From contig NC_014484.1 in assembly GCF_000147075.1 (NCBI RefSeq), positions 947,501 to 1,011,500 of the forward strand: DNA of 64,000 bases. Direction: 5' to 3'. The notes beneath the pieces were generated by a model, which saw nothing but the letters and a program-made list of their open reading frames with translations, did no database searches and was not told the DNA's origin. Of the stretch, positions 25,496-30,378 are shown one piece after another. Position 1 is the first letter of the stretch. Each line of letters begins with the position of its first letter. The position numbers and the translations under genes were made by a program. This DNA comes from Spirochaeta thermophila DSM 6192 (GTDB lineage Bacteria > Spirochaetota > Spirochaetia > Winmispirales > Winmispiraceae).

Positions 25496-25975
25496 ATGGC
25501 CGAACAGGATCAACTCCAACTGGTGACGTTTCAGCTCGGGAACGAGATCTACGGCGTGGATATCTTCGATGTGCGGGAGATCCAGCGGAGGCAAGAGGTC
25601 CGTCCCATTCCCAACGCCCCTCCTTTCATCGAGGGTATCTTCAAGTTGCGGAAGGATATCATCCCGGTGATCAACCTCCACAGGCGGTTCCACATCCCGG
25701 AGCCCGAACTCTCGGAGGAGGATCGCCTCCTCAGTGGAATACTCATCCTCGAGATCGACAGGAACAAGATAGGGGTCCTCATCGACAAGGTGCTCAGGGT
25801 GGTCTCCATTCCGCACGAGAAGGTGCAGCCTCCTCCCGAGGTCTTCACCGGTATCGGTACCGAGTACATCGAGGGGGTGGTCCAGCAGGAGGATGGGTAC
25901 CTCATCGTTCTGGATGTCCACAGACTCTTCAGCCCCAAGGAGCTCAGGCAGATTGAACGCACCATTGCAAGGTAA
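25496..25975 (+). CDS. cheW: chemotaxis coupling protein CheW
   Basis: A 159-residue CheW that links chemoreceptors to the CheA kinase in the cytoplasmic receptor array. The fold opens LQLVTFQLGNEIYGVDI and shows the conserved interface segment RPIPNAPPFIEGIFKLRKDIIPVINLH (in part) and GVLIDKVLRVVSI. The frame extends upstream through the small helical gene region, but the ATG with a purine-rich site at 25496 is the natural start. It leads a cluster with a DegT-like gene, nadK and recN; I recall a similar order in Treponema. Confidence 0.93.
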   Translation: MAEQDQLQLVTFQLGNEIYGVDIFDVREIQRRQEVRPIPNAPPFIEGIFKLRKDIIPVINLHRRFHIPEPELSEEDRLLSGILILEIDRNKIGVLIDKVLRVVSIPHEKVQPPPEVFTGIGTEYIEGVVQQEDGYLIVLDVHRLFSPKELRQIERTIAR

Positions 25976-25985
25976 GGGGTCCGGC

Positions 25986-27002
25986 ATGTCGATTCCTCTG
26001 TTCCGTCCCTCAATCCGACGGAGGGACATGGAGGCCGTGCTCGCACAGATGGTCGACGAACGCCTCGCCCCGGGTGAGGTCTCCAGGACCTTCGCGAGGG
26101 ATCTCTCGAAGGTCCTCGGTGCAGTCGACGGGGTGGCCTTTCGGGAGTACGAGCGTGCCCTCCTCACACTGATGGGGGTGCTCGAGCTCTCTCCCGGTGA
26201 CCGCATCCTTGCCTCGCCCCTCCTTCCGGCTGTGTACGGTGAGGTGTGGGCGCGGTTAGGGGTGGACGTGGTGGTGGCCGACGTGGATCCGAGGACGGGT
26301 GATCCCCGGGGGGTCGAGGACCTCGTGGACGGGGTGAGGGCGGTCTTCTGGAATCTCCCTCTGGGGGTGGTGCCGCACATGGGCACGCTCGCCTCCCTGG
26401 GGGTACCGCTCGTCCTGGATGTGTCCCAGGGGGTGGGGGCATCGTGGGAAGGCGCGCCGGTGGGGACGTCCGCCTCCTACGTGGTGGTGAGCCTCGAGTC
26501 GGATGGGATCATCACCACCGGGGGTGGTGCGGTGATCGGGGGATGCGGGAGGAAGGAGGCCCAGGTCCTTGCCCGGGTGAGGGCGGAGATCCATTTCGGC
26601 AACCTCCTCTCGGACATGAACGCCGCGCTCGGCATGACACAGCTCGCCCAGCTCGACGAGTTCCTGGAACGGCGCAGGGGGATCTGGGATGTCTACCTCG
26701 ATGCCCTCATGAGGTCCCGACATTCGGGCTTCTCCTCCGTCCACGAAGGGGCTGTGTCGGTGCCTTGGACATTTCCCGTTCTCCTCTCCTCGGAACGGAA
26801 GGCGGCCTTCCAGTATGCGAAGAAACAGGGGGTGGAGGCGGGCGACGCCTTCCAGGATACGCTCATCGCCTGTTTCGATGTGGGAAGGTCGTGTCCGGGA
26901 GCGGAGGAACTCCTCCGTCGGTGTCTCATCTTCCCGCTCTATCCCATCATGTCCAGGGAGCGGGTCCAGCGGGTGGCGCGTGTGATCGCCTCCCTCCCTT
27001 GA
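25986..27002 (+). CDS. DegT/DnrJ-family protein lacking the PLP lysine
   Basis: A 338-residue protein with the overall pattern of sugar aminotransferases of the DegT/DnrJ/EryC1/StrS fold: N-terminal PLFRPSIRRRD, GDRILASPLLPAVY, PLVLDVSQGVGASWEG and C-terminal RCLIFPLYPIMSRERV. The usual active-site stretch S-x5-K-N-x-G-E-G-G reads SLESDGIITTGGGAVI (from about residue 168), so the Lys that binds pyridoxal phosphate is missing. It is therefore unlikely to be a normal aminotransferase; a non-catalytic or altered function is inferred. The ATG at 25986 follows AGGGG. It is embedded between cheW and nadK. Confidence 0.78.
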   Translation: MSIPLFRPSIRRRDMEAVLAQMVDERLAPGEVSRTFARDLSKVLGAVDGVAFREYERALLTLMGVLELSPGDRILASPLLPAVYGEVWARLGVDVVVADVDPRTGDPRGVEDLVDGVRAVFWNLPLGVVPHMGTLASLGVPLVLDVSQGVGASWEGAPVGTSASYVVVSLESDGIITTGGGAVIGGCGRKEAQVLARVRAEIHFGNLLSDMNAALGMTQLAQLDEFLERRRGIWDVYLDALMRSRHSGFSSVHEGAVSVPWTFPVLLSSERKAAFQYAKKQGVEAGDAFQDTLIACFDVGRSCPGAEELLRRCLIFPLYPIMSRERVQRVARVIASLP

Positions 27003-27016
27003 ATCCGGGTGGACGT

Positions 27017-27862
27017 ATGCCAGATGTCGTGGTGATCGCAAATCTCGAGAAGCCGCGTACTCCTCGTATCCTCCATGAGGTGGAGGAGCGTCTCAGGGGG
27101 GAAGGGCTTTCGTACCGCGTGCTCGGTCTGGAGGGGTCACTCCCTGAAGCCTCCCTCGACGGCGCGCGGTTGGCGATCTCCATAGGAGGCGACGGTACGG
27201 TTCTCTACAGCGCGAGGCTCGTGGCTTCCCACGGGGTACCGCTTCTGCCGATCAACGCCGGGAGGTTGGGCTTCCTCGCGGAGCTCGGCGAGGGGGAGTG
27301 GAGCGAGGTCTTCTCTTCCTGGAAGGAGGGGGAGGCCCTTGTGAGCGAGCGTCTCATGCTCAAGGCCACGGTCTCCAGGGGTGGGGAGGTGGTCGCCTCG
27401 TGCATCGGGCTCAACGATGCGGTGATCTCTTCGTCCGGTATCTCGAAGATCGTGCGTCTCTCGGTGGTCATGCACTCCTGTACCATGGGCGAGTACCATG
27501 CCGACGGGGTGATCATCGCCACGCCCACGGGGTCCACGGCCTACTCGGCCGCGGCCGGAGGCCCCATCCTCCATCCCGAGGTGCCGGCCTTCATCGTCAC
27601 GCCCATCTGTGCCCTCTCGCTCGCGAGCAGGCCGGTGGTGACCCCTTCTTCCGAGCCGGTGATCGCCCGGGTGCATCACCACCTGCGTACGGGGGTGCTC
27701 CTCACCATAGACGGGCAGGAGGTGGTGGAGCTCGCTCCCGGCGACGAGGTGCGGGTGGAGGATGCGGGGATCAGGGCGCGCCTCCTGCTGTCTCCGCGGT
27801 GGACGTTCTACGACGTGCTCCGGACCAAACTCGGATGGTCGGGAGGACCGGTGTATGCTTGA
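27017..27862 (+). CDS. nadK: NAD kinase
   Basis: A 281-residue ATP-NAD kinase making NADP. The catalytic GGDGT motif is near residue 57, followed by NAGRLGFLAE, CIGLNDAVIS and the nucleotide-binding HADGVIIATPTGSTAYS. The frame extends well upstream within the DegT-like gene; the ATG at 27017 has GGGTGG before it and gives the family length. It overlaps recN by 8 nt. The nadK-recN pairing is common in bacteria. Confidence 0.95.
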   Translation: MPDVVVIANLEKPRTPRILHEVEERLRGEGLSYRVLGLEGSLPEASLDGARLAISIGGDGTVLYSARLVASHGVPLLPINAGRLGFLAELGEGEWSEVFSSWKEGEALVSERLMLKATVSRGGEVVASCIGLNDAVISSSGISKIVRLSVVMHSCTMGEYHADGVIIATPTGSTAYSAAAGGPILHPEVPAFIVTPICALSLASRPVVTPSSEPVIARVHHHLRTGVLLTIDGQEVVELAPGDEVRVEDAGIRARLLLSPRWTFYDVLRTKLGWSGGPVYA

Positions 27863-29552
27863 GCAGCTCTCGGTGCGTAACTATGCGATCATGCGTGAGC
27901 TCGTGGTGGACTTTTCCTCGGGGTTCACGGTCCTCACGGGTGAGACCGGGGCGGGGAAGTCCATACTCATAGGGGCGTTGGGGCTCCTCGGCGGGGGCAA
28001 GGCGGATGCGGATGTGGTGCGCGCCGGGCAGGAGCAGGCCGAGGTGGCGGGGGTCTTCGTGGTGGAGGGCAATCGGGAGGCCCTGGCCTGGCTCGGGGCA
28101 CGCGAGATTGAACCCGAGGACGGCCGGGTGGTGGTGCGGCGGGTGGTCAGGAGTTCCGGTCGGTCGAGCGCCTTCATCCAGGCCGCGCCGGTGACGGTCG
28201 CGGACCTCGCGGAGTTCTCGGGGTTCCTCTTCGACATCCACGGTCAGCACGAGCACCAGTCGCTCTTCAGAACCGAGTTGCATCGGCAGTACCTGGATGC
28301 CTTCGGCGGGTTGGAGGGGGATGCGGCCGCGTACGCGGAGGTCTTCAGGCGGCTCACCGAGCGGCGGCGTGAGCTCGAGGATCTCCTCTCCAAGGAGCGG
28401 GACCTCGTACGGGAGCGGGAGCTCCTCGCCCATGCGGTGGAGGAGATCGAGGCGGCACGGCTCACACCGGGCGAGGACGAACAGGTGGAGCAGGAGCTCT
28501 CCCTCCTTTCCCACCTCGAGCAGGTGGCCGAGGACCTCAAGGACTTCTTCTCCCTCGCGACCGAGGGACCACAGGCGGTGCTTCCCGCCCTCAAACAGAT
28601 GCGGAGGCTCCTCGGTCAGGTGGAGCGGGTGGACAGGAGGGTGGAGCCCCTGGGGGCACGTCTCGAGAGCGCCTACTACGAGCTCGAGGATGTGACGGAG
28701 CAGATCAGGTCGTATCGGGAGGGGCTCGATTTCTCTCCCGAGCGGCTCGAGGCGGTGGCGGAGCGGAGCGCGCTCATCCAGCGCCTCAAGCGCAAGTACG
28801 GCGACACCGTGGAGGAGGTGCTCTCCTTCCTCGAGGAGGCGCGCCGGAAGCTCTCGAGGCTCGAGTCGTACGATGAGGAGACGGCCCGTCTCAGGATGGA
28901 GGTGGAGGAGCTCCAGCGGGAGGTGCTCCGACGGGCAAAGGCCCTCATGGAGGCCCGCGTCCGGGTGGGCGAGGAGTTCGCCCGGAGGGTGGAGACGATC
29001 ATCCGCTCGCTGGGGATGCAGAAGGCACGGTTCTCCGTCCAGGTGGAGCAGCGTCTCTCGGAGCGGGGGGCGCCCGTGTGCACCCCTTCGGGTATGGACC
29101 GGGTGGAGTTCCTCATCGCCCCCAATCCGGGTGAAGACTTCAAGCCTCTCCGAAAGATCGCCTCTGGTGGTGAGATCTCCCGGGTGATGCTCGCCATAAA
29201 GACCCTCACGGCGCAGAGCGATCCCATCGCCACCCTCGTGTTCGACGAGGTGGATACGGGTATAGGGGGGGAGGTGGCCCTCGCGGTGGGCGAGTACCTC
29301 TACGAGGTGGCCAGGTACAAGCAGGTGCTCTGTATCACGCACATCGCATCGATCGCCGCCAGGGGGGATCGTCACCTGGTGGTGCGCAAGCGGGTTGAGG
29401 GAAACGAGACTATGGCCGATATTGAATATGTGGAAGGGGATGACCGGGAGGAGGAACTGGCGCGCATGCTCTCGGGGGACGTGGACAGCAGGGTCTCGCG
29501 GGAGCATGCACGGGAGCTACTCATGAAGTACGGAGGATCCACGCGTGGCTAA
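27855..29552 (+). CDS. recN: DNA repair ATPase RecN
   Basis: A 565-residue SMC-like ATPase acting in double-strand-break repair. The N-terminal MLEQLSVRNYAIMRELVVDF leads into Walker A GETGAGKSI. Then come IHGQHEHQSL, long central coiled coils (about residues 150-380), the signature-type SGGEISRVMLAIK, Walker B DEVDTGIGG and the switch ITHIASIAA. The start at 27855 overlaps nadK by 8 nt, and the end overlaps the next gene by 8 nt. Confidence 0.96.
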   Translation: MLEQLSVRNYAIMRELVVDFSSGFTVLTGETGAGKSILIGALGLLGGGKADADVVRAGQEQAEVAGVFVVEGNREALAWLGAREIEPEDGRVVVRRVVRSSGRSSAFIQAAPVTVADLAEFSGFLFDIHGQHEHQSLFRTELHRQYLDAFGGLEGDAAAYAEVFRRLTERRRELEDLLSKERDLVRERELLAHAVEEIEAARLTPGEDEQVEQELSLLSHLEQVAEDLKDFFSLATEGPQAVLPALKQMRRLLGQVERVDRRVEPLGARLESAYYELEDVTEQIRSYREGLDFSPERLEAVAERSALIQRLKRKYGDTVEEVLSFLEEARRKLSRLESYDEETARLRMEVEELQREVLRRAKALMEARVRVGEEFARRVETIIRSLGMQKARFSVQVEQRLSERGAPVCTPSGMDRVEFLIAPNPGEDFKPLRKIASGGEISRVMLAIKTLTAQSDPIATLVFDEVDTGIGGEVALAVGEYLYEVARYKQVLCITHIASIAARGDRHLVVRKRVEGNETMADIEYVEGDDREEELARMLSGDVDSRVSREHARELLMKYGGSTRG

Positions 29553-30378
29553 GGTGAGCGCCGAGGCACGGGCGCGCTACACGGAGCGTATTCGGAAGTA
29601 TACGAGCAGGCTCGAGCAGCTCTCGGCGAGGGAGCGGAACCTGTCGGCCATCGTCTCGAAGGCCGATTCGGGGTTCGAGGTGCAGAAGCTCGCCCTCGCG
29701 GAACTTCTCCTCAACAAGGTCTCCTGCTACCTGGTGATGGACGCGCTCTCGGAGAGGCTCCTGGGGGTGAAGAACGATGGGTTCCTCAACGAGGCGAGAA
29801 AGGTGTGGTCACAGAGCGTGATCCAGATCGAGGAGGTGGTCTCCGACTTCATCGACCCTTCCATCTCCGATCTCAAGGACAGGCTGGATGCCATAAGCGG
29901 TCTGGATGAGAAGGAGCGGTTCCGCCTCATCCACAAGTTGGGGTTCGCCCTGGAGAGCGTGAGGGAGGCCTTCGGTGAGGGCTCGAAGTGGAAGTGGGCC
30001 TTCGTGGATATGGAGGCTCGATTCGCCACGGTGGCGAAGAATATCCTCGACCTGCGCACCCTGGTGGAGAAGCTCGATCCCCGGGTGGAGGGGTACAGGG
30101 AGCGGGTGCAGTACCTGGAGCTCGTGAAGCGCCTCCTCATGCAGGCGGCGGAGCGCTACAGGGAGCGCTATGAGCTGGCCACCCACAGGCTCGAGGATTT
30201 CAGGAAGGCGATCCTCTATCTCGAGAGCTACAAGCGGCTCATGATGCTCCTGGGTGAGCGCGAGGAGGTGGAGATGGTGTCGAAGAAGATCGAGGTGTGG
30301 CGTAACAAGATGGAGGACGACGAGAAGAAGATGCAGCAGAGGGGCGCTGCGGGCGGGGGACAGCCTCAGGGTGCCTGA
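29545..30378 (+). CDS. helical protein of unknown function, spirochetal type
   Basis: A 277-residue, largely alpha-helical cytoplasmic protein with coiled-coil segments (near residues 10-45 and 195-260), no signal peptide and no membrane segment. The tail is low-complexity (MQQRGAAGGGQPQG). I cannot assign a family with known function. It is translationally coupled to recN (8-nt overlap, GTG start) and closes the cheW-degT-nadK-recN group. Its 3' end overlaps the end of the convergent cdd by 13 nt. Confidence 0.75.
   Translation: MAKVSAEARARYTERIRKYTSRLEQLSARERNLSAIVSKADSGFEVQKLALAELLLNKVSCYLVMDALSERLLGVKNDGFLNEARKVWSQSVIQIEEVVSDFIDPSISDLKDRLDAISGLDEKERFRLIHKLGFALESVREAFGEGSKWKWAFVDMEARFATVAKNILDLRTLVEKLDPRVEGYRERVQYLELVKRLLMQAAERYRERYELATHRLEDFRKAILYLESYKRLMMLLGEREEVEMVSKKIEVWRNKMEDDEKKMQQRGAAGGGQPQGA

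Follow-up and report, generated by a model that had tools for sequence, protein, structure and literature searches.

Organization of the locus

The window, the whole 64,000-nucleotide stretch of DNA analysed here (G000:C1:947501-1011500), belongs to the genome of Spirochaeta thermophila DSM 6192, a single contig of 2,472,645 bases. It contains an array of genes encoding CheW, a DegT-family protein (referred to here as X), NAD kinase and RecN, followed by a gene for a 277-aa protein (Table 1), a homologue of which lies immediately 3' of recN in 35 of 45 large spirochaete loci. X matches PF01041 (DegT_DnrJ_EryC1) over residues 9-333 (E 1.7e-29, 103.6 bits against a cut-off of 19.8), while none of the NCBIfam equivalogs searched with X came near its own cut-off. 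The genes are closely spaced, with 10 nt between cheW and X and 14 nt between X and nadK, agreeing with the gaps of 10-14 nt given in the original prediction. X has a GC3 of 0.81, similar to the 0.79-0.85 of the adjacent genes, and so gives no impression of having been acquired recently.

Table 1. Coordinates of the features of the X locus within the window
Feature	Position	Strand	Basis or remark
cheW, 5' member of the conserved array	25496..25975	+	PF01584 3.1e-32
X, DegT/DnrJ/EryC1/StrS-fold protein without PLP lysine, 338 aa, ATG start	25986..27002	+	Pfam PF01041, AF2, VIA, alignment
X R53-E-Y-E-R57, former PLP-phosphate loop (ArnB S61-S-A-T64-A65)	26142..26156	+	Arg53 in 122/133 homologues
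X residues 169-184, SLESDGIITTGGGAVI; former SFHxxK lysine segment, now S-L-E171-S-D-G174	26490..26537	+	Aligned to ArnB S183-F-H185-A-I-K188
nadK, NAD kinase, directly 3' of X	27017..27862	+	PF20143 1.3e-29, PF01513 4.4e-12
recN, overlapping the end of nadK	27855..29552	+	TIGR00634 2.6e-171; start codon seen
277-aa protein after recN, without significant Pfam match	29545..30378	+	Homologue in 37/45 large loci

Conservation of the array and distribution of X

In class Spirochaetia, NadK lies directly 3' of X in 127 of 133 loci, and CheW directly 5' in 112 of the 127 loci with a visible upstream side. The exact order cheW-X-nadK-recN is found in 62 of the best 80 named genome matches. It is present in Treponema lecithinolyticum (L143), T. 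zioleckii (L163) and T. parvum (L183), as well as in a T. pallidum-sized genome of 1.1 Mb (L109), so that the order which the original prediction had ascribed to Treponema is real. The same order is also present in a family of another class (f51), indicating that it is old. In Brucepastera parasyntrophica (L149:7035-9624), nadK apparently shares a reading frame with the start of recN while the remainder of recN lies in another, reflecting either a fusion or a frameshift. The literature within reach, which mostly excluded subscription journals, yielded nothing on TP0440, on spsC together with Treponema and cheW, or on the family as a pseudoenzyme.

X is matched at E 3e-29 or better in the genomes of 46 out of 60 relatives, and at 1e-15 in 203 of 296 Spirochaetota genomes, a count that includes the relatives from other classes described below. 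The best 80 of 488 genome matches are all spirochaete records, and the gene is present across dozens of families as well as in very small genomes; among the matches listed, one (G043) contains an internal stop. Comparison of two close genomes of the genus gives dN 0.025, dS 0.171 and dN/dS of about 0.15, compared with 0.02 for CheW and 0.04 for part of RecN, indicating that X is under purifying but looser selection and evolves faster than its neighbours. Plasmid-borne spread was considered and rejected, the matches listed in the plasmid collection being DegT proteins of about 26-27% identity only.

An intact fold without the PLP lysine

The AF2 model of X, built from the family alignment, has a pLDDT of 96.4 and a pTM of 0.93, and a homologue from the Sphaerochaeta lineage, only 33% identical to X, is also modelled with a pLDDT of 92.2. 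The best Foldseek match is ArnB, which superimposes on X with a VIA Z score of 39.2 over 335 of 338 residues (1mdo); perosamine synthase likewise reaches Z 39. X thus has the fold-type-I fold, and the PDB entries that it matches best belong to ordinary sugar aminotransferases, with no solved structure of the X family itself seen among them.

The cofactor lysine was located by two alignments that give the same register. In an HMMER profile of 57 homologues, Gly174 of X is aligned with K188 of ArnB without gaps through the segment, and the same pairing is obtained in a joint MAFFT alignment comprising 133 X homologues from class Spirochaetia, 27 relatives from other Spirochaetota classes and 12 canonical enzymes (E. 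coli ArnB, E. coli WecE and ten spirochaetal paralogues). The canonical enzymes all have Lys in this column (12/12), compared with 3 of the 133 X homologues, confirming the predicted absence of the PLP lysine from the active-site segment of the window protein and extending it to 130 homologues. The column varies freely in X (49th entropy percentile), being occupied by D (59), G (30), S (14), H (13), C (7), N (6), K (3) and others. The three Lys-bearing homologues (L134:1049-2071, L135:2036-3058 and L139:1442-2464) belong to one subclade, in which the segment reads SMEPDK and the phosphate-loop Thr and the aromatic residue are missing. A substitute lysine, whose placement in the active site was one of the observations that the original prediction said would overturn it, is ruled out by the absence of an invariant lysine column among the 133 homologues, the best candidate being K280 in the C-terminal domain (74% Lys and 22% Arg).

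Erosion and rebuilding of the cofactor site

In the sugar aminotransferase Spr1654, PLP is contacted by Lys199, Asp170 (N1), Ser194 and Thr59 (phosphate), Glu205/Gly206 (via water) and Tyr84 (ring), while His196 and Lys257 hold the amino donor (PMC5936713). The equivalent residues in ArnB are K188, D160, S183, T64, E194/G195, W89 (Trp in place of Tyr84), H185 and K241, respectively. Among the PLP-contact positions, only D160 and G195 are fixed in X (each 133/133), the former corresponding to Asp145. In the T64 column, A, P, V, S, Y and G are the commonest of several residues (Glu56 in the window protein), and Ser is present in the S183 column in 39 of 133 homologues and in the window protein (Ser169). 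The phosphate-binding Thr/Ser pair is not retained in the family. The ring aromatic residue is replaced by Pro in 124 homologues (Pro81), H185 by Glu in 124 and Asp in 6 (Glu171), and E194 by Gly in 130. The trans-subunit loop carrying the amino-donor Lys/Asn (ArnB 239-241) falls in columns that are gapped in at least 132 of 133 homologues, and the stretch between the lysine column and the next helix has a median of 33 residues in X versus 56 in the canonical enzymes. Class Spirochaetia has therefore lost, in addition to the lysine, most of the remaining cofactor contacts and the loop by which the partner subunit covers the substrate, while the fold and the selection on it are kept. The suggestion that the fold pattern is otherwise retained accordingly holds for the overall fold and fails for the cofactor site, little of which is left; on the related question of whether the PLP pocket survives, the alignment columns indicate that it does not.

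The positions lost to PLP binding differ in their later history. The columns of T64 and K188 drift, unlike their neighbours at ArnB positions 61 (Arg), 89 (Pro), 185 (Glu) and 194 (Gly), which rank in the most conserved tenth of X with residues that are new. More than 20 columns of X are at least 85% conserved with a residue other than the canonical one. Three pocket positions have been re-fixed to new residues (Arg53, Pro81 and Glu171), and drift at the catalytic positions beside newly fixed residues is what one would expect if the cleft had acquired a new use.

Relatives in other classes and the origin of X

The DegT relatives of X in other Spirochaetota classes (L074-L100) lack the lysine in 24 of 27 cases, the exceptions being L075, L079 and L086. 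The old site is better preserved in most of the lysine-less ones (Ser62, Ser183), which are found in other contexts, and five of the other-class loci share the nadK and/or recN neighbourhood. No partner common to these relatives was found among their neighbours. In seven loci (L084, L090, L099, L078, L092, L094 and L081), a lysine-less relative adjoins a gene of the 6-pyruvoyl-tetrahydropterin synthase (PTPS) family; a GlmU-like gene lies near both L076 and the lysine-bearing L079, and a WecG-like glycosyltransferase gene also lies near L076. These PTPS, GlmU-like and WecG-like neighbours are suggestive of a nucleotide-sugar origin. The relative at L097:3992-5044 (minus strand) scores strongly as a DegT protein and has kept its SGTAAL phosphate loop intact, but its PLP lysine is replaced by Arg.

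A tree of 64 sequences, read from the canonical enzymes (ArnB, WecE and paralogues; 100/99), contains three changes of lysine state: the lysine disappears once, at the root of the lysine-less relatives, gives way to Arg in L097, and returns in L134/L135/L139. X descends from lysine-bearing DegT proteins. A single ancient loss, early in Spirochaetota, is the simplest reading of these sequences but not a proof, because some deep branches are modestly supported. The nadK-recN genes near L079, together with the GlmU- and WecG-like neighbours, fit an ancestor that was a nucleotide-sugar aminotransferase encoded beside nadK-recN.

Probable function of X

By sequence and fold X belongs to the DegT family, and by its residues it falls outside the PLP-dependent enzymes. 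Because the shape is kept and nearly all of the residues that hold the cofactor are lost, X is very probably not a PLP-dependent sugar aminotransferase, and would have another conserved job throughout class Spirochaetia, including Treponema. The explanation that we favour with good confidence is that X is a pseudoenzyme of ancient origin, still maintained, with the DegT fold and without PLP, and that it probably works as a dimer which binds a ligand or serves as a scaffold. Such a protein would bind no PLP and would not transaminate, and would most likely act as a (homo)dimer, with the former active-site cleft rebuilt around Arg53, Pro81, Asp145, Glu171 and Gly180. The rebuilt cleft might either hold a different small ligand or be closed by internal salt bridges, and the work of X, as a ligand-sensing or scaffold protein, would be housekeeping in nature rather than chemotactic. 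NadK is the neighbour that X keeps most often and, on the basis of gene order, is a candidate for a functional link. Two observations serve as counterpoints, namely the invariance of Asp145, through which a pyridine-type ligand could still be bound, and the three homologues with Lys in the column. A bolder and more tentative version, which we put forward as possible, holds that X is a Spirochaetia-wide DegT-fold receptor or enzyme, independent of PLP and rebuilt on Arg53/Glu171/Asp145, with a conserved, undescribed function behind a database name of aminotransferase.

The conserved polar residues also raise the possibility of catalysis. A new cofactor-independent enzyme, with a pocket rebuilt from Arg12, Asp16, Arg53, Asp145, Glu171, Asn212 and His246 for an unrelated reaction, would account for the several polar residues that are X-specific and at least 85% conserved (Arg12, Arg53 and Glu171 differing from the canonical residues) and for the retention of X in the 1.1-Mb genome; however, the neighbours of X suggest no substrate or pathway partner and the substrate-covering loop is deleted, making such an enzyme rather unlikely. 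Less likely again is a lysine-free enzyme that still depends on cofactor, using PMP with another residue in place of the lysine in the manner of the ColD and E1 dehydratases. Both of these proteins are among the structural matches of X (E1, 3bcx, Z 37.1; ColD, 3b8x, Z 36.9), Asp145 is invariant, and 13 of 133 homologues do carry His at the lysine position, but Asp, Gly and Ser predominate there, and X is also missing the phosphate-loop Thr, the aromatic residue, Glu194 and usually Ser183.

The position of X directly 3' of cheW in most loci, and in f51 of another class, invites the view that it is a chemotaxis component working with the adjoining CheW. This view is largely refuted by patterns of presence and absence, and we consider it very improbable: seven genomes of family f8, 95-99% complete, encode no CheW-domain protein and keep X, with the order X-nadK-recN in those whose loci were inspected, while Borrelia-sized genomes of family f19 (L216, L217 and L218) keep cheW-nadK-recN with X absent. 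The CheW neighbourhood therefore says little about the function of X, and of the chemotaxis/NAD kinase/RecN cluster originally proposed the gene order stands, while chemotaxis as a clue to function does not. That X is the decaying remnant of an aminotransferase gene, for which its dN/dS above those of CheW and RecN might be cited, is scarcely credible and was rejected on the open frames (with the single internal stop already mentioned), the purifying selection and the new conserved columns, besides its retention in dozens of families and very small genomes. What was found instead is a protein whose catalytic residues are lost while its frame and fold remain under selection, in a conserved gene order, which upholds the initial view of X as a maintained pseudoenzyme rather than a product of decay.

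If this explanation as a PLP-free pseudoenzyme is true, most of Spirochaetia, including bacteria with Treponema-sized genomes of 1.1 Mb, keep a gene named for a chemistry that its product cannot perform, and metabolic models that assign these bacteria a sugar aminotransferase on the strength of X are in error. In addition, the family forms a graded series, leading from the Lys-bearing L075/L079/L086, through Lys-less relatives with Ser62 and often Ser183, to class Spirochaetia in which the site is erased, and is thus a good case of an enzyme fold turning non-catalytic.

Comparison with known systems

X shares the whole fold-type-I fold with ArnB, GDP-perosamine synthase, PseC and Spr1654 (Z 37-39, rmsd 2.0-2.4 over 333-337 residues, 19-21% identity). 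Canonical sugar aminotransferases and X also have in common the Asp at PLP N1, and Asp210, Gln219 and Arg230 of the following helices. Unlike these four enzymes, X is without the PLP lysine, the phosphate-loop Thr, the aromatic residue and Glu194, and its trans-subunit loop is shortened. In the PMP-dependent dehydratases ColD and E1, which resemble X in combining the DegT fold with a replaced active-site lysine, a fixed His takes the place of the lysine and the bound cofactor is kept; by contrast, X has no fixed residue at this position (Gly174 in the window protein) and has lost most of the cofactor contacts. The serine palmitoyltransferase subunit SPTLC1/LCB1 is a lysine-less fold-type-I protein of the eukaryotic alpha-oxoamine synthase family, kept as a non-catalytic partner that pairs with an active paralogue, whereas no active paralogue is encoded beside X. 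A further comparison is with the relatives in other Spirochaetota classes, which like X have mostly lost the lysine, but which more often keep Ser62 and Ser183 and are encoded at other locations.
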